Source: Gemmatimonadota bacterium (GTDB lineage: Bacteria > Gemmatimonadota > Gemmatimonadetes > Longimicrobiales > Gaopeijiaceae). Taken from it: a stretch of DNA of 64,000 nt. Shown here in pieces: positions 55,065-63,843 of the stretch. The notes below the pieces were generated by a model that had not been told where the DNA came from, ran no database searches, and saw only the letters and a program-made list of their open reading frames with translations. Location: contig JAUIKL010000002.1 in assembly GCA_030430625.1 (NCBI GenBank), positions 27,279-91,278 on the forward strand. The letters are read 5' to 3'. A program made the position numbers and the translations under genes. Each line of letters begins with the position of its first letter. The first letter of the stretch is position 1.

Positions 55065-55840
55065 GCGGCCGCCGGTGGTAGGAGCTGCGTCAGGACCGGG
55101 TGGACCTGATCGAGAAGCGTCGACTGCACGAGCAGTTCGGGGAGTCGACTTCCACGGGTGATCCCATTCGTGAGTCCGGGGTCCTCGGGAAGAGCACCCA
55201 GAATGTCGAGATCGCACGCCAGGAAGCGCTTCGCGCCCTCCCGCAGCACGGAGGCCGCCACATCCAGCTCCTGACCACCCGTTCGGTTGAAGAGGATCCG
55301 TGCCGGCGCCTCCGCGTGGACCATGAGCGCTTTCAGCATGGCGTGTGTGGACGCCAGACCGATGGCGTCGGCGGCCGTCACGACGACCACCGAGCCGACG
55401 CGCAGGTCGATCATCCGCTCGAGGGCGTGCAGGCGCGTGCCGGCATCGACGACAACGAGGTCCCGATCGTTGAACAGCGGAGGGACCCGGCGAACGATGG
55501 CTCGCACCTCCCTCGACTCCGACGCGCCGGCGGTCAGACTCAGCAACTCGAGCGACCCGTGCACCGGCGCAACGAGTCTCTCGACAGGACCCGACCCGAG
55601 TTCGGCCAGCGTCACCGTACGCGGAGCACCGAGCCATACCCGCTGCACGTCGAGCCACGGTTCGGCGTCGACGAGGAGCGTGCGGCGGCCGACCGACGCC
55701 CCTCGGATGGCGAGTAGGGCGGAGACCAACGACACCCCCGCCCCCCCTCTTCCGGCCGTCACGGCAACGACGTGAGGAGGCCCTCTCCGGGCGCGTCGGC
55801 GCCCGATCTGGGCGCGAAGGGCTTCGAGCTGGGAAGTCAC
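55061..55840 (-). CDS. flhG: FlhG/MinD-like protein with degenerate Walker A
   Basis: Position between flhF and fliA; GRGGAGVSLVSALLA aligned to GKGGVGKTS. Confidence 0.82.
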   Translation of the reverse strand: MTSQLEALRAQIGRRRARRGPPHVVAVTAGRGGAGVSLVSALLAIRGASVGRRTLLVDAEPWLDVQRVWLGAPRTVTLAELGSGPVERLVAPVHGSLELLSLTAGASESREVRAIVRRVPPLFNDRDLVVVDAGTRLHALERMIDLRVGSVVVVTAADAIGLASTHAMLKALMVHAEAPARILFNRTGGQELDVAASVLREGAKRFLACDLDILGALPEDPGLTNGITRGSRLPELLVQSTLLDQVHPVLTQLLPPAAA

Positions 55841-56649
55841 GCGATCGCCTGGAGGGTGGAGGGTTCACGCCCACGACGCAGAGCACCGGAGACGAGTCGG
55901 TCGGGGGCACCGTGCAGGTCTTCGGGGACACCCTGTCCATCCGTGACCCAGCGGGCTGGGAGGTTCAGCCTTCCGGCGATCGGCGCTGCCCCCGACTCGC
56001 TGGGATCCTCGTCCAGCTTGGTCAGGAGCGAATGCGTCGGTCCGACGTCGGCGAAGTGCGCCATGACCGCGTCGGCGACTTCGAGCCGTACGCAAGCCGA
56101 CACGACGAGATGCACCTCGTCGGGCCGCAAGGCGACGAGTGAATCGCGCCACCGACGATCCACCGCACTCGAAGCCGGGGCGCGCCCCGGTGTGTCGACG
56201 AGGACGACGTCGCAACCCGACAGACGGTGAAGCGCGCCCTGCGCCTCTCGCGGTTCGGTCGCGACCTCGAGCGGAAGTCGGGCCAGGTCCGCGTAGGTTT
56301 GGACCTGGTCGAAGGCGCCGATCTTGTAGCTGTCGAGTGTGATGATGCCCACGCGGAAGCCACCGAACGCAGACACGTTCAGCGCGAGCTTGGCCAGCGT
56401 CGTCGTCTTCCCCGACCCGGTCGGACCGACGAGAGCGAGAACCCGCGTACGCCGACCGACCCGACGCGGCGGCCCGGGCTGACGAAGAGTCCAGTCGAAT
56501 CGTCGTACCTCGTCCGGCGTCGTCGCCGTCACCTCGAATCCGCCCGGCACCGTTCGCGTCTCGAGGAGGAGTGCGTCGTCTCCGAGGACGGCCCGAACCC
56601 GGTCGAGGGCCTTCGAGACGTTCGGTGCGTGGATGCGCTCGATTCTCAT
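55837..56649 (-). CDS. flhF: Flagellar SRP-type GTPase FlhF
   Basis: ALVGPTGSGKTTTLAKLALN, GIITLDSYKIGAFDQVQTYADLARLPL. Confidence 0.93.
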   Translation of the reverse strand: MRIERIHAPNVSKALDRVRAVLGDDALLLETRTVPGGFEVTATTPDEVRRFDWTLRQPGPPRRVGRRTRVLALVGPTGSGKTTTLAKLALNVSAFGGFRVGIITLDSYKIGAFDQVQTYADLARLPLEVATEPREAQGALHRLSGCDVVLVDTPGRAPASSAVDRRWRDSLVALRPDEVHLVVSACVRLEVADAVMAHFADVGPTHSLLTKLDEDPSESGAAPIAGRLNLPARWVTDGQGVPEDLHGAPDRLVSGALRRGREPSTLQAIA

Positions 56650-58733
56650 GAGATCTCCCAGGATCCGAGAGGCTCGAACCCGGCGTGTGAAGGCAGTTCA
56701 GCGAGTGAGATCACCGGCACGTGCGGAAGAACCGGCTCCAGCAGCTTTCGAATGCCGACACGGAGCGACGGCGGCGCGATCACCGGCACCGCACCGGCCC
56801 CCTGAGCGCGTGTCATCCGGTCGAGTTCCTGGATGGCGGTCGACAACCGCTCGGGAGCCAGAGACTCGCCGGTCGTCCCGCGCGGGGAGAAGAGCCCCAT
56901 CAGCGCGGCTTCGAGACGCGGGCCCACCGTGATGCCACGGATCGAGCCTCGCTCGTCGAGGTAGCGGTCCGCGATGATCTTTCCGAGCGCTCGCCGGACG
57001 TGCTCGGTCAGTGCTTCGGGGTCCTTCGTCGTCTCGGCGTGGTCGGCCAGCGATTCCAGGATCGTGACGAGGTCGCGGATCGGCACCTGCTCCCGTAGGA
57101 GTCGCTGGAGGACCCGGTGTACCACACCAAGCGAGACCCGGGTCGGCACGACCTCGTCGACGAGCGCCGGATGAGTCTCTTTCAGGCGATCGAGTAGGGC
57201 CTGGACATCCTGTCGGCCAAGAAGATCGGCGCCGTGTTCCTTGAGCGTCTCCATGAGGTGCGTCGCGACGACCGAACCGGGTTCGACTACCGACCACCCG
57301 CGAGCTTCAGCGTCGATCTTGGCGTCGCGCGGAATCCAACGGGCCGGCAGACCGAAGCTCGGATCGCGCACCTCGATGCCGTCGACGGGGGCGACCACCT
57401 TGCCGGTGTCTAGGGCGAGCAGGTTCCGCATCATCACCTCGCCACGGGCCACCTCGGAGCCGCGAAGCCGGATCACGTACTCTCCCGGAGCGAGCTCGAT
57501 GTCGTCCCGGATTCGAATCGGGGGCACGAGGAGCCCGAGATCCTGGGCGGCCTTCTTTCGCAGGACGCCGACCCGGCTGAGCAAGTCTCCGCCCTGGGAC
57601 TCGTCGACGAGGGGGATCATCGCATACCCGACCTCGAGTTCGACGGGATCCAGAAGGATCAACTCTTCCAGGGGATCGTAGGCCGACGGAAGCGCGACCG
57701 CCGAGCCCGGCTCGACCTGCTCCCCTTGCGACTCGGGTAGCCCGATCGTTCCGACGCCCGGTGCGGACGCGGAGGGCGCGGATGCCTCGTTCTGCGATGC
57801 CAGCAGACCGAGCCCACCGAAGGCAGCGGACAGGAGGAGAAACGGCGCGTTCGGGAGCGCAGGAACGAGTCCCAACGAGCCCAGGATCACGGCCGATGCC
57901 CAGAGCGGCCGAGGATCCCGTCCGAGCTGGTGAGCCAGGGCGGCGCCGACCCTGGCCCCTCCGGCCGAGTAGGTCACGACGATACCCGAGGCTGTGCTGA
58001 CGATCAGGGCCGGGATCTGGCTCACCAGTCCGTCACCGATCGTGAGCATCGTGTACTTCGCGGCGGCGTCGGCAAGAGGAAGGGCCTCCTGAAGCATGCC
58101 GACGTAGAGCCCGCCGAGGATGTTGATCCCCGTGATCAGCAGGCCCAGAACCGCGTCACCGCGAACGAACTTCGCGGCGCCGTCCATGGCGCCGTAGAAG
58201 TCGGCCTCCATCGAGATCTCGCGACGACGACGACGCGCCTGCGCCTCGTCGATGATCCCGGCGTTGAGGTCCGCGTCGATACTCATCTGCCGCCCGGGCA
58301 TCGCATCGAGGGTGAAGCGGGCCGCAACTTCGGCCACGCGCCCCGCACCCTTCGTGATCACGATGAAGTTGATCGCGACCAGAATCAGGAAGATGACCAC
58401 CCCGACCGCGTAATTCCCCTGGACAACGAAATCCCCGAACGCGGAGATCACCGCGCCACCTTCGCCGCGACCGAGGATCAACCGTGTGCTCCCGACGTTC
58501 AGCCCGAGACGGAAGAGGGTGAGGAGGAGAAGGAGGGTCGGGAAGGCCGAGAGCTCGAGGGGATTCGACGTCTGCAGCGCGACGAGCAGCACGAGCAGGG
58601 AGCTGGCGATGCTGACCGTGATCAGGATGTCGAGGACGAAGGTCGGGAGCGGCAGGACGAGGAGGGCCACGACCCCGACGACCGCCGCGATGATGACGAA
58701 GTCCGCGTTCTGGAAACCCCGATCCTGACTCAT
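56646..58733 (-). CDS. flhA: Flagellar export protein FlhA
   Basis: VVIFLILVAINFIVITKGAGRVAEVAARFTLDAMPGRQMSIDADLNAGIIDEAQARRRR. Confidence 0.97.
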   Translation of the reverse strand: MSQDRGFQNADFVIIAAVVGVVALLVLPLPTFVLDILITVSIASSLLVLLVALQTSNPLELSAFPTLLLLLTLFRLGLNVGSTRLILGRGEGGAVISAFGDFVVQGNYAVGVVIFLILVAINFIVITKGAGRVAEVAARFTLDAMPGRQMSIDADLNAGIIDEAQARRRRREISMEADFYGAMDGAAKFVRGDAVLGLLITGINILGGLYVGMLQEALPLADAAAKYTMLTIGDGLVSQIPALIVSTASGIVVTYSAGGARVGAALAHQLGRDPRPLWASAVILGSLGLVPALPNAPFLLLSAAFGGLGLLASQNEASAPSASAPGVGTIGLPESQGEQVEPGSAVALPSAYDPLEELILLDPVELEVGYAMIPLVDESQGGDLLSRVGVLRKKAAQDLGLLVPPIRIRDDIELAPGEYVIRLRGSEVARGEVMMRNLLALDTGKVVAPVDGIEVRDPSFGLPARWIPRDAKIDAEARGWSVVEPGSVVATHLMETLKEHGADLLGRQDVQALLDRLKETHPALVDEVVPTRVSLGVVHRVLQRLLREQVPIRDLVTILESLADHAETTKDPEALTEHVRRALGKIIADRYLDERGSIRGITVGPRLEAALMGLFSPRGTTGESLAPERLSTAIQELDRMTRAQGAGAVPVIAPPSLRVGIRKLLEPVLPHVPVISLAELPSHAGFEPLGSWEIS

Positions 58734-59809
58734 CGGCGACTCCGCGTGTGCGCCGGCGGGCGGTGCCGGAAGACAAAGGCCAGGATCTCGGCCACCGCCA
58801 CGTAGAGGATCGGCGGAATCGGAAGGCCGACCTTCGACGTGGCGAAGAGCGCGCGAGCCACCGGCTTGTTCTCCACCACGGGAACGCCCGCCGAGAGGGC
58901 CAGCTTTCGGATCCGCAGAGCTGTCTTACGCGTGCCCATCGCGACGACGATCGGCGCGTCCGCGACCTCCGGGTCGTACCGGAGCGCCACGGCGATGTGG
59001 GTCGGGTTGGTCACGACGACGTCGGCCGTCGGGACGGCCTGCATCATCCGCATGCGAGCCAGCGAACGACCGAGGCTCCGCAGCCGCGCTCGCACCATCG
59101 GATCACCTTCGGACTCGCGAAGCTCCTTCTTGACCTCCTCCTTCGTCATCCGGAGTTCGCGCTGGTGCTGCCACGACTGATAGCCGTAGTCCGCGACCGC
59201 CAGACAGAGGAGCGCCAGTCCCGCCGCGAGCAGGACCGTGGCGACCTCGCTGCGAAGGACGTCGAGTAGCGCCGCCGGCCCGCTCTGGGGAAGGCGACTG
59301 AGGTCGGACAGCGCCCCCGAGAGGGCGACATACACCACCGCCCCGACGACAAAGAGCTTGAAGAGCGCTTTGCCGAGGTCCACGAAGGGCCTCGGGCTCA
59401 GGTAGCGCTGAAGGTTCTTCACCGGTGACAGCCGACTCCAGTCAGGCTGCAGCGGCTTCAGTGTCAAGGTGGCGCGGCCCTGAACCACACCGACGGCCAG
59501 GGCCAGCCCGGTCACGGCCAGCGCGAAGGGAAGGAAGCCCAACGCCGCCTGTCCTCCCACCCACCTCATGTACTCGACGGCGGCGCGCGGATCGTAGAGG
59601 GACCCGTGTCCCACGAGGAAGCTCGTCCGGGTCACGGACTCGAGGGCCCGCGCGATCTGCCCTCCGCCGGGCCCCACCATGAGGCCCGCCGCAATCAGAG
59701 CGGCGGCTGCGGACAGCTCCTGGGTGCGCGGAATCTTCCCATCGTCCCTCGCCTCTCGCTGCCGTTTGGCAGTTGGTTCTTCGGTCTTGTCCTGCTGGTT
59801 CTCGGCCAT
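58730..59809 (-). CDS. flhB: Flagellar export protein FlhB
   Basis: TNPTHIAVALRYD autocleavage motif; QQDKTEEPTAKRQREARDDGKIPRTQEL. Confidence 0.96.
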   Translation of the reverse strand: MAENQQDKTEEPTAKRQREARDDGKIPRTQELSAAAALIAAGLMVGPGGGQIARALESVTRTSFLVGHGSLYDPRAAVEYMRWVGGQAALGFLPFALAVTGLALAVGVVQGRATLTLKPLQPDWSRLSPVKNLQRYLSPRPFVDLGKALFKLFVVGAVVYVALSGALSDLSRLPQSGPAALLDVLRSEVATVLLAAGLALLCLAVADYGYQSWQHQRELRMTKEEVKKELRESEGDPMVRARLRSLGRSLARMRMMQAVPTADVVVTNPTHIAVALRYDPEVADAPIVVAMGTRKTALRIRKLALSAGVPVVENKPVARALFATSKVGLPIPPILYVAVAEILAFVFRHRPPAHTRSRR

Positions 59810-59810
59810 A

Positions 59811-60578
59811 TCAGAACCCCGCGACCGCGCGGAGGAATCGGGCGGCGAGCCCCTCGATATGTGCCGGCCATCCGGCGTAGAACGTCGCGGCGAGCGGGAT
59901 GGCGCCGGCGAGCGTCACCAGTCCGAGACCGATCTGCAGCGGAAAGGCGACTGCGAGCATGTTCAGCTGCGGCGACGTGCGAGCAAGAACGCCGAGAGCC
60001 ACATACCCGACCGAAACGGCGGCGATGATCGGCCCGGCAAACTGCAGCCCCTGTGAAAAGAGCACGGTGAAGGTCCGCGCGATTTCGGTGACCCCCGCCC
60101 CGACGTCGAACGCGGCCCCCACGGGAACCACCTCGTAGCTGGCCGCCAGCGCCTCGATCATGACGAGGTGACCGCCCGACACCAGCAACAGGGTGAGAAC
60201 GAAGAGGCTGAGGAACTGACCCATGATCCCGGTCCCGAAGCCGGTCAGTGGATCGAGGGCCGTCGCGCCCGCCAGTCCGGTCTGAACGGAGAGAATGTCA
60301 CCGGCCAGTTCCGCCCCACCGATCAGGAGCGCCGCGCCGATCCCGAGTCCAATCCCGACGACCATCTCCGACGCCAGCGCCATCGGAGAGAGGGCGACCG
60401 ATGGTGGCACCTCCGGAATCGTCGGCAGCACCAGCGCCGTGAGGAGCACGGCGATCGCGGCGCGTATGGGCGCGGGCACGGTGCGCGCCGCGAGGAGCGG
60501 GGCCACGACCATCAGGCCGGCAATACGAAAGAAGACCAACGCACCGCCAACGAGCAGTCCGCTCAGGGCCGGGTCCAC
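59811..60578 (-). CDS. fliR: Flagellar export protein FliR
   Basis: VFFRIAGLMVVAPLLAARTVPAPIRAAIAVLLTALVLP; GTG start at 60578. Confidence 0.93.
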   Translation of the reverse strand: MDPALSGLLVGGALVFFRIAGLMVVAPLLAARTVPAPIRAAIAVLLTALVLPTIPEVPPSVALSPMALASEMVVGIGLGIGAALLIGGAELAGDILSVQTGLAGATALDPLTGFGTGIMGQFLSLFVLTLLLVSGGHLVMIEALAASYEVVPVGAAFDVGAGVTEIARTFTVLFSQGLQFAGPIIAAVSVGYVALGVLARTSPQLNMLAVAFPLQIGLGLVTLAGAIPLAATFYAGWPAHIEGLAARFLRAVAGF

Positions 60579-60580
60579 GG

Positions 60581-60850
60581 TCAGCCCACCATGGCCGGCA
60601 CGGCCAGAAGCAAGCGAGATCCGAAGCCGACCGCCACCGAGAGTGTCCACGGCAGCAGCGCGAAGAGAACGATGCCGACCGAGAAGAGCTTGAGCACGAA
60701 GGCAACGGTCTGCTCCTGCACCTGCGTGACCGTCTGGAAGATGCTCACCGTCAGACCCACGGCGAGCGCGATCGCCAGGAGGGGCGCGGAGAGCCAGAAG
60801 GCCGTGAGGATCGCCTGACGACCCAGTTGCACGACGAGTTCGTACGTCAT
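60581..60850 (-). CDS. fliQ: Flagellar export protein FliQ
   Basis: 89 aa, LSAPLLAIALAVGLTVSIFQTVTQVQEQTVAFVLKL. Confidence 0.95.
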   Translation of the reverse strand: MTYELVVQLGRQAILTAFWLSAPLLAIALAVGLTVSIFQTVTQVQEQTVAFVLKLFSVGIVLFALLPWTLSVAVGFGSRLLLAVPAMVG

Positions 60851-60857
60851 CGCCGGC

Positions 60858-62027
60858 TCACAGGAAGCTCTGAGCCAGGGCGCCCATCAAGAGCGTCCAT
60901 CCGTCCATGAGGACGAAGAGCATCAGCTTGCAGGGCAAGGCGATCATCGTCGGTGGCAACATGAACATGCCCATGCTCGTCAGCACGGCGGCCACGACGA
61001 GGTCGATGACGATGAAGGGCAGGAAGATCGCGAAGCCGATCTCGAACGCGGTGCGCAACTCGCTCGTGACGAACGCCGACATCAGGACCGTGTGCGGTAT
61101 GTCCGCAGGAGTCATCGGGGGCGGTGTCCGACTGATTTCGAGAAAGGTCGCCAGGTCCGCCTCACGCGTCTGCGTGAGCATGAAGGCGCGCATCGGCTCG
61201 ATGGCCCGCCCGAGCATCTCACCCTCCTCGATCTCGCCGGCCACCCAGGGGTCGACCGCGTAGACACGGACCTGTTCCAGGGTGGGCGCCATGACCGCCC
61301 CGGTCAGAAGGAGGGCCAGACCGGCCAGGAGGTGGCCGGGCGGTGTGTTCTGGGTCCCGAGCGCCTGCCGCAGAAGGTGCAGGACGATCAGGATTCTCGT
61401 GAAGGCGGTCGTGAGAAGGAGGAGGCTGGGCGCCAGGGACAGGAGGCCCAGGACGATCACCGTGCCGACGGTCCCGGTCAGCCGAAAGCCGCCTTCCTCG
61501 TCTCCGATCTGTACATCGACACCCTGCAGGGCTTCGTAGATCGGGCCGAAGGGGCTCGGGCCCTGCGGAGCCAGCGTGGAGCCGGGCCCACCGGGCTGGA
61601 GTGCACCGTACGGGGCGAGCTGCTCCCACGGCGCGCTCCCGGGGACGGGCGTCTGCGCACCGATCGCGGACGGGGCCAGGCCCAGCCCGAGGATGGCCAC
61701 TCCGATGCCCATCTTCGTGCGGAGCACCTTCTGGAAGTCGATGGGCCGGCGCTCGGCCACCTCGGGTTCGTCGAGGTCCGTCGGATCGAGCTCCGCAAGC
61801 ATCCGAGCCCCGCCTTCACCGCACGACACGAGCCAGTGCCGTCGACCCACACGCACGACGGCGAGCCCCTGGTTCGCGTGCAGGCCAACACGGGCCGTCA
61901 CTTCGAGGCGGTGCGGGTGCGTACCACCCGCCACCCCGGTCAGCCGCCGGCGTGCCCACACGGCACAAAGGAGGAGGCCCACCAGAAAGCCGGCCGTGGC
62001 CAGCCCGGTCAGAAGGAGTTGAATCAC
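60858..62027 (-). CDS. fliP: FliO-FliP fusion (flagellar export gate)
   Basis: N-terminal TM plus FliO-like RLEVTARVGLHANQGLAVVRVGRRHWLVSCGEGGARMLAEL; then FliP TAFTRILIVLHLLRQALGTQNTPPGHLLAGLALLLT. Confidence 0.9.
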   Translation of the reverse strand: MIQLLLTGLATAGFLVGLLLCAVWARRRLTGVAGGTHPHRLEVTARVGLHANQGLAVVRVGRRHWLVSCGEGGARMLAELDPTDLDEPEVAERRPIDFQKVLRTKMGIGVAILGLGLAPSAIGAQTPVPGSAPWEQLAPYGALQPGGPGSTLAPQGPSPFGPIYEALQGVDVQIGDEEGGFRLTGTVGTVIVLGLLSLAPSLLLLTTAFTRILIVLHLLRQALGTQNTPPGHLLAGLALLLTGAVMAPTLEQVRVYAVDPWVAGEIEEGEMLGRAIEPMRAFMLTQTREADLATFLEISRTPPPMTPADIPHTVLMSAFVTSELRTAFEIGFAIFLPFIVIDLVVAAVLTSMGMFMLPPTMIALPCKLMLFVLMDGWTLLMGALAQSFL

Positions 62028-62380
62028 GTCGGCTGCGCCGTGTCGGCGGCGTCGCGGATGCGCACGATCCTCACCCCGAACTTCTCTCCGACGACGACGA
62101 CCTCACCCGTGGCGAAGGGTCGCCCACTCACGAGGACCTCGATCGGCTGACCGACCAGGCGGTCGAGCTGAATCACCGAGCCGCGGCCGAGCGATAGGAC
62201 GTCCTCGACGGCCATCTGAGTCCTGCCCAGCTCGATCGTCACCGGGACCTCGAGGGACATGACCACATCCATGGAGGCGGTCCCGCCCGCTGCGTCGGCG
62301 TTGCCGACATCTCCGACCCGGCCACCTTCGGCGCCGGCCGCACGCTCTTGAGCCAGGTCGGGGAGTTCTTCTTCGGTCAC
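62024..62380 (-). CDS. fliN: Flagellar motor switch protein FliN
   Basis: VPVTIELGRTQMAVEDVLSLGRGSVIQLDRLVGQPIEVLVSGRPFATGEVVVVGEKFGVRI. Confidence 0.96.
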   Translation of the reverse strand: MTEEELPDLAQERAAGAEGGRVGDVGNADAAGGTASMDVVMSLEVPVTIELGRTQMAVEDVLSLGRGSVIQLDRLVGQPIEVLVSGRPFATGEVVVVGEKFGVRIVRIRDAADTAQPT

Positions 62381-62407
62381 GTTGCTCTCTCCATCGTCTT
62401 CGTCGGA

Positions 62408-63319
62408 CTACTCGGCCTGAACCGCTTCTGTGATCTGGACCCCGAGGTTCGGCCCCAGCTTGCCCTGCCGGCCCCGGAATCGGACCGTCTGTGAAACGCG
62501 GACCTCCACAGGGTCGTCGGGGGCGACGTCGGTCATCAGGAGGTCTCCGGGCTTCAGTTCGGACAGCGCCCCGAGGGTCATCGCCATCGTCGGGAAGGTT
62601 GCCGAGACCGTGACCTGAGCTCGCCGCACAAGGCCCTCGACCTTGCCCTTTTCCACGGCCTCCTCCGCCGGGGACCGCCGGGAGGACGTGGCGTGTCGAC
62701 GCGGCGTCGGACTGAGGAACTCCTCGAGTACGACGAAGGGCACCGCGAGAAGGATGTGCCCCTTCACCTCCTCGAACTCGACCCGCAGTGTCGTGATCAG
62801 AACGTCGTCTTCACGCGCGGCCATCTCGACCAACTCACGGGCCGACTCGAAGCGCTCGAAGGCGAGGTCGAGCTTGGTTTGCTCGGCCCACAACTCGGAG
62901 AACTCGTCGGCCACTCGGTCGGTAACCATCCGAGTCACCGCCTGCTCCAACCCCGTGAGCGCGCGATCGGGCGGCTCAGTCACCGTCGACCCACCGACCA
63001 GGCGCTCCACCAGCAAGAAAGCGATCTGTGCGTCCAGATAGATCGCGGCCGTCGCCCCCTCGAGGTTGCGTATGTCGTAGATGAACGTCGCGCCCGGATC
63101 GGCGAGGTTGTCGACGAAGTCGCCGTACGCCGCCTGCGAGATCGACTCCAGGTGGACTTCGAAGGGCGCCCTGAGACGACCCGACACCCAGCGCTGCAAC
63201 TGCTGCGCAAGCTGCTCGTGCGAAGCCTCGAGACTCTTCTGCCGCTCCGGAGAAATCCGGCTGGGCTTCCGGAAGTCGTAGGGGACGACGTCCCCGCGGG
63301 AAGGCTGGGGGCGGATCAT
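62408..63319 (-). CDS. fliM: Flagellar motor switch protein FliM
   Basis: YDFRKPSRISPERQKSLEASHEQLAQQLQRWVSGRLR...; C-terminal SpoA-like domain. Confidence 0.95.
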   Translation of the reverse strand: MIRPQPSRGDVVPYDFRKPSRISPERQKSLEASHEQLAQQLQRWVSGRLRAPFEVHLESISQAAYGDFVDNLADPGATFIYDIRNLEGATAAIYLDAQIAFLLVERLVGGSTVTEPPDRALTGLEQAVTRMVTDRVADEFSELWAEQTKLDLAFERFESARELVEMAAREDDVLITTLRVEFEEVKGHILLAVPFVVLEEFLSPTPRRHATSSRRSPAEEAVEKGKVEGLVRRAQVTVSATFPTMAMTLGALSELKPGDLLMTDVAPDDPVEVRVSQTVRFRGRQGKLGPNLGVQITEAVQAE

Positions 63320-63843
63320 TGGATGACGAACGTCGGGAAGAAGATCCGGTGCACACCCTCCCGCCCCAGCATGTCGTTCAGGCTCATCCGCAATTCTTCG
63401 CGGATCACACCCCGCATCGACACGTCCGCCAACTCCTCGACGGTCCGGCTGGCGAGGGCGGTGAGGAGCATGTCGCGCACCTCGGCGTCACGCTCGGTCA
63501 ACTCGGCGTACGCGTCGTCGTCGGACTCCAGCACGAGTGTGGCGATCAAGAATCGCGATGCCCCGGAACCGGCCGGATTGAGCACCAGGTTGTCGATGGT
63601 CAGCGGTCCCTCGGCGGCTTCCTCCCCACCGCCGTGCCCTCCGCCGCCCCCGTGCCCCCCGCCATCGGACTCTCCGTCGGATGCGAGGAATCCCGCGACG
63701 ACCGGTGTCGCGGCAGGACCGCCCACGAAGGCGCCCGCCCCTGCCCCGATCAGGGCGGCGACCAGGACGAGCACCATCGACGGGCCCGACTTCTTGCCGG
63801 ACTCGTCGAACGGATCGCCTTCCTCGAGAGGCTCGTCAGCCAC
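63316..63843 (-). CDS. fliL: Flagellar basal body-associated protein FliL
   Basis: Single TM, LVLNPAGSGASRFLIATLVLE, MRGVIREELRMSLNDMLGREGVHRIFFPTFVIQ; GTG start at 63843. Confidence 0.88.
   Translation of the reverse strand: MADEPLEEGDPFDESGKKSGPSMVLVLVAALIGAGAGAFVGGPAATPVVAGFLASDGESDGGGHGGGGGHGGGEEAAEGPLTIDNLVLNPAGSGASRFLIATLVLESDDDAYAELTERDAEVRDMLLTALASRTVEELADVSMRGVIREELRMSLNDMLGREGVHRIFFPTFVIQ

Follow-up and report, generated by a model that had tools for sequence, protein, structure and literature searches.

Does a flagellar operon of a Gemmatimonadota bacterium encode FliO and FliP as one polypeptide, and if so, how would such a chain give rise to a mature FliP? The initial annotation of this DNA proposed a single-frame fusion of the two genes, with an internal signal peptide at which signal peptidase might split the product. 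The window, meaning the whole 64,000-nucleotide stretch analysed, contains the following features at and around this locus, all on the minus strand:

62024..62380, minus: fliN (context; Pfam FliMN_C)
60858..62027, minus: fliOP, single FliO–FliP open reading frame of 389 aa with a GTG start; GTGA overlap with the fliN stop
61941..62024, minus: FliO membrane helix TM1, residues 2–29 (AlphaFold helix 2–29; hydrophobic run)
61713..61958, minus: FliO domain, residues 24–105, with a four-strand beta core at 41–80 (Pfam PF04347; AlphaFold)
61713..61742, minus: basic FliO tail or n-region, IDFQKVLRTK, residues 96–105 (comparison of fused relatives)
61656..61712, minus: internal signal-peptide-like segment MGIGVAILGLGLAPSAIGA, residues 106–124, predicted cleavage A124↓Q125 (comparison across fused proteins)
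61710..61712, minus: internal ATG (M106), first residue of the hydrophobic segment
61452..61655, minus: Pro/Gly/Ala-rich linker, then a predicted beta-hairpin (171–174, 181–184) (AlphaFold; low confidence at 116–158)
60876..61451, minus: FliP domain, residues 193–384 (Pfam PF00813, NCBIfam, Foldseek)
60581..60850, minus: fliQ (context; Pfam Bac_export_3)
59811..60650, minus: fliR (context; Pfam Bac_export_1)

One reading frame for FliO and FliP

The frame at 60858–62027 contains no internal stop between its FliO and FliP parts, and the proposed single-gene fusion was borne out: both Pfam domains lie in one frame, an arrangement conserved in relatives. The genes run in the order fliN, fliOP, fliQ, fliR, so the fliP-fliQ-fliR order is present, and the locus is the main export-gate operon; fliN, fliQ and fliR were identified by Pfam, while fliM, flhB and flhA nearby were recognised from their open reading frames only.

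The FliO model PF04347 matches residues 24–105 (E 2.4e-9; 37.6 bits against a curated cut-off of 22), and the NCBIfam model for FliO, TIGR03500, gives a match that stays below its threshold (29.9 against 55.25). In the AlphaFold model, an N-terminal membrane helix (2–29) is followed by strands at 41–80 with pLDDT 86–90, the same single membrane helix and small cytoplasmic beta domain as in FliO (PF04347), the flagellum-specific chaperone of FliP. The initial annotation gave FliO about the first 95 residues, with a membrane helix and a beta domain; the Pfam match ends near residue 105. Both Pfam domains match in 38 of 38 sampled fused proteins (FliO at E ≤ 0.001), and the DFR/DFQ motif of the FliO tail recurs across many relatives. 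A search of the window genome found no separate FliO. Compared with ordinary FliO, the fliOP product lacks a FliO stop codon and runs on into FliP.

The FliP half was matched by PF00813 at residues 193–384 (E 9.2e-72; 241.4 bits against 26.9) and by the NCBIfam fliP model TIGR01103, which it passes with 244.9 bits against 217.45. Since only FliP exceeds its NCBIfam cut-off, ordinary annotation may label fliOP as FliP and leave FliO missing. A profile search against solved FliPQR structures returned FliP matches with E down to 9.3e-87, and Foldseek matched solved FliPQR subunits (8wk3, 9k29, 6s3l) with E down to 9.6e-15, the superposition rmsd being high; the window FliP is about 50% identical to solved FliPs. 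AlphaFold, run on 20 aligned proteins, gave a mean pLDDT of 69.7 and a pTM of 0.41, at which the relative placement of domains is unreliable, and predicted the order helix 2–29, beta domain 41–80, helix 99–116, low-confidence stretch 116–158, hairpin 171–184 and FliP helices. Salmonella FliP likewise has a complete FliP domain, the same A↓Q boundary directly before its mature part, and a beta-cap hairpin at the spot equivalent to the hairpin predicted at 171–184 (PMC12403130). It differs in that the signal peptide of fliOP is internal, behind an entire FliO, and in that the mature N-terminal linker of the fliOP product is long and rich in Pro and Ala.

Two normal genes could have been joined by a missed stop or a frameshift, and the window does come from a draft metagenome-assembled genome (MAG; 294 contigs, 87% complete). 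However, a second fused fliOP lies on another contig of the same MAG (C197, locus L206), whose entire 7.9 kb is collinear with the flagellar operon at window 55581–63492 at 90.9% identity; instead of a true duplication, C197 probably represents a related strain or species whose contig entered the same bin. Between the two copies, FliO differs by 20 silent and 2 amino-acid-changing codons and FliP by 48 and 1, and this dominance of silent changes places both halves under purifying selection. The fusion also recurs across the class, in 80 genomes, some of which (G017, for example) consist of a single contig. With the C197 copy and these fused relatives, an assembly or sequencing artefact was rejected and retains next to no credence.

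Spread of the fusion and its separations

A search for the FliP family across Gemmatimonadota found it in 95 of 370 genomes, to which a genus and family search added one, giving 96. A long open frame had to be rejected as proof of fusion: among 48 control FliP frames with long upstream openings, drawn from samples of three other phylum-level groups and including every listed frame of at least 345 aa, FliO lay in another frame in 44, was not detected in 3 and was truly fused in 1. That sole fusion, L275 from the Bacillota sample, also has a signal-peptide-like junction. Because long frames mislead in this way, all counts require FliO to be found in the same frame as FliP, by an HMM built from the fetched loci.

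By this criterion, 80 of the 96 genomes are fused, 7 have the locus cut at a contig end, 4 carry separate genes (all of one genus, g94) and 5 are not fused (class f11). Inspection of relatives, which had been suggested as a check, therefore found the fusion in 80 of the class's 84 genomes in which the locus is not truncated, and named records assign the group to Gemmatimonadota, among them relatives labelled Gemmatimonadaceae and Longimicrobiales. Flagella are patchy in the vicinity of the window genome, with FliP in 1 of 13 other genomes of its genus and in 11 of 59 genomes searched (the window's included). In class f11 (L013–L017), FliP is a gene of its own whose product begins with a signal-peptide-like segment, and the HMM used detected no FliO in the fetched flanks.

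Outside the phylum, Thermodesulfovibrio sp. SKYB4 (L173, Nitrospirota) also has a fused FliO–FliP. In its class, 75 of 120 genomes have FliP, and of 20 new loci taken from them, 13 are fused, giving with L173 14 distinct fused proteins, whose open frames span about 335–380 aa; in the remaining 7, FliO and FliP are separate. Three of the separate Nitrospirota FliPs (L191, L192, L195; about 210 aa) have no signal peptide, whereas every fused FliP keeps a hydrophobic segment.

On an unrooted FliP tree made by a quick method, the Gemmatimonadota fusions and g94 share one branch (SH-aLRT 99), the Nitrospirota fusions lie elsewhere, and at least five changes between the fused and separate states are needed. 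The fusion thus occurs convergently, and is most simply explained by a single fusion event in Gemmatimonadota, followed there by a single fission, together with independent fusion or fission events in Nitrospirota.

The separated loci are closely related in layout to the fused ones. In g94, FliO ends in ...EDFQAVLSMAMAGGAHA and one stop or in ...AMAGGTK and two stops, and FliP follows in another frame from a GTG at or beside the FliO stop, for example VTIRGAVIGLATLLAFSPASASLLAQ; given the position of this split, right at the signal-peptide boundary, the DFQ/DFR motif remains with FliO, and the separated FliP carries a hydrophobic segment itself. The FliO stop of Nitrospirota L187 and L188 overlaps or adjoins the FliP start, and FliP again begins with its own hydrophobic segment. 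These overlapping genes of Nitrospirota and g94 have the same order and the same FliO tail as fliOP but occupy two reading frames in place of one, and a slight shift of frame where the genes overlap would convert the fused form into the separate one or the reverse.

The junction segment and predicted maturation

The internal segment first described as a signal peptide is kept in relatives, and the site originally proposed, AIGA↓QT, coincides with the predicted cleavage at A124↓Q125. Sites were predicted by simple rules (n-region, h-region, A-x-A). Residues 96–124 of the window protein show the pattern expected of a Sec signal peptide for signal peptidase I (basic n-region, short h-region, small residues at −3 and −1), with Ile at −3 and Ala at −1. 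Among 97 distinct fused proteins (83 from Gemmatimonadota, 14 from Nitrospirota), the hydrophobic junction segment is retained in all 97 and a basic flank in nearly all, with a median n-region net charge of about +2 and a few at 0 or −1. An A-x-A site follows the h-region in 83/83 Gemmatimonadota and 13/14 Nitrospirota proteins, but Ala abounds in the linkers, which makes A-x-A by itself a weak criterion, and only A-x-A↓Q and the geometry discriminate. A-x-A↓Q stands next to the h-core in 74 of the 83 Gemmatimonadota fusions, compared with 62 of 462 windows in the remainder of these linkers; a shuffled control gave a mean of 13.3 (maximum 23) of 83. Counted from the final polar or charged residue of the n-region, the site lies a median of 19 residues downstream, a value shared by 35 separate FliPs from other phyla. 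Over its best 19-residue stretch, the junction has a hydropathy of 1.68, against 2.58 for FliO TM1 and 2.15 for the signal peptides of separate FliPs. These sequence properties favour a junction that resembles a cleavable signal peptide rather than a permanent helix.

Internal translation could supply FliP without any cleavage, mainly from the ATG of M106 or a nearby start, the fused product then being a minor by-product or a source of FliO only. The initial annotation had placed such an ATG near 61707; the codon exists, at 61710–61712. M106 opens the hydrophobic segment in both the window and the C197 copy, Met codons stand just upstream of the segment in some relatives (for example MKRTGAVMALVVG in L010), and the window ATG has a partial, poorly spaced Shine–Dalgarno match. 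However, FliP begun at M106 would be without the basic n-region, and in 14 of the 97 fused proteins the stretch from FliO to the h-region contains none of the codons ATG, GTG and TTG, so that internal initiation cannot be general. Shine–Dalgarno-like matches precede 10 of 381 internal starts (2.6%), compared with 4.3% of other codons there, and a genome search found no FliP gene besides the window fliOP and the fused C197 copy. The comparison of start codons and Shine–Dalgarno matches thus lends no support to the internal ATG as the FliP start, and internal initiation as the main source of FliP appears quite improbable.

The claim that topology would allow signal peptidase to split the chain agrees with what is known from Salmonella, in which FliO is oriented N-out/C-in (PMC2947984) and the FliP signal peptide is cut at A21↓Q22 (PMC12403130); given these two facts, the order of segments in fliOP works topologically. 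Two candidate signal peptidase I-type genes are present in the window genome. In the proposed pathway, FliO would insert N-out, leaving its beta domain cytoplasmic, and the internal signal peptide would reinsert from inside to outside, which would bring the FliP N-terminus into the periplasm. A cut after A124 by signal peptidase I would then let mature FliP start at Q125, as at A21↓Q22 of Salmonella. The signal-peptide remnant would not be freed but would remain as a C-terminal membrane segment of FliO, which ordinary FliO does not bear. FliO and FliP would be made together and side by side, their synthesis equal and co-localised, with a presumed benefit that may include 1:1 stoichiometry, and the FliO so produced would serve as the assembly chaperone of FliP.

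The same chain might instead stay whole, with the junction as a permanent second helix, FliO tethered to FliP and five FliO domains around the finished export gate. A hydrophobic segment would be required for topology either way, so its presence alone is no proof of cutting, and the long flexible linkers could let a tethered FliP N-terminus reach the pore: the median post-h linker is 87 aa in fused Gemmatimonadota proteins, 44 in separate Gemmatimonadota FliPs and 30 in other phyla. Against permanent tethering stand the signal-peptide length of the junction, its hydropathy below that of FliO's own membrane helix and the enrichment of A-x-A↓Q beside it. Furthermore, Salmonella FliO, a chaperone of FliP, does not belong to the completed basal body (PMC5542435), which would speak for release, and, judging by the g94 fission, the two proteins appear to work separately in a descendant. 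An uncleaved two-domain protein is therefore judged unlikely.

We put the probability at about 0.78 that signal peptidase I divides the fliOP polyprotein into FliO and mature FliP, with the remnant anchoring the C-terminus of FliO. We also lean towards extending this to the whole set, as a class-wide, convergent polyprotein in which signal peptidase I would both mature FliP and free a chaperone FliO with its remnant anchor, each FliP being born beside one FliO.

Related systems and significance

No description of a FliO–FliP fusion was found in the open papers searched, and the main-text passages searched in a 2025 survey of FliO mention none (PMC12403147). The parts are known; what is new, as far as those open papers show, is their union in a one-gene polyprotein with a signal peptide inside, though an earlier mention may exist. 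Looking in the literature for other bacterial polyproteins that signal peptidase cleaves gave nothing usable. The cytochrome b–c1 polyprotein FbcH of Bradyrhizobium, likewise a bacterial membrane protein, is said to be processed at a signal peptide within the chain; it belongs to a respiratory complex, unlike fliOP, and serves as a lead only. Closer in function is an engineered FliR–FlhB fusion in Salmonella, partially functional according to the passage of PMC5542437 that cites Van Arnam 2004. Like fliOP, it joins two export-gate proteins in one chain, but the partners are others and there is no internal signal peptide.

FliO is often called missing, yet the 2025 survey shows it to be almost universal and badly detected (PMC12403147), and the fusion explains how it can appear to be absent where FliO hides in a protein labelled FliP. 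The role and stoichiometry of FliO are still poorly understood. A natural fusion that is fixed in the main class of the phylum and arose again in Nitrospirota provides evolutionary evidence that FliO and FliP are paired during FliP insertion, and fliOP offers a ready construct for testing co-translational chaperoning. Should cleavage prove true, fliOP would further represent a bacterial polyprotein matured by ordinary signal peptidase.

Some minor observations accompany these results. Q straight after the signal-peptide site is common (74/83 FliOP; 3/6 signal-peptide-like genes of the window), and the pattern in Gemmatimonadota FliOP resembles the Bacteroidetes 'Q-rule', in which Q follows the site (PMC5837995). 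A general 'Q-rule' for secreted proteins was set aside, as the counts are too small (3/6 in the window, 3/9 in G017, 2/30 in a Nitrospirota genome). The FliOP proteins of Gemmatimonadota family f5 (such as L020, L026 and L047) have very long Pro/Ala-rich insertions flanking the signal peptide, with up to about 190 aa separating the h-core from FliP. Antisense to fliOP, a 352-aa open frame runs along the plus strand at window 61092–62150 and is most likely a high-GC shadow frame.
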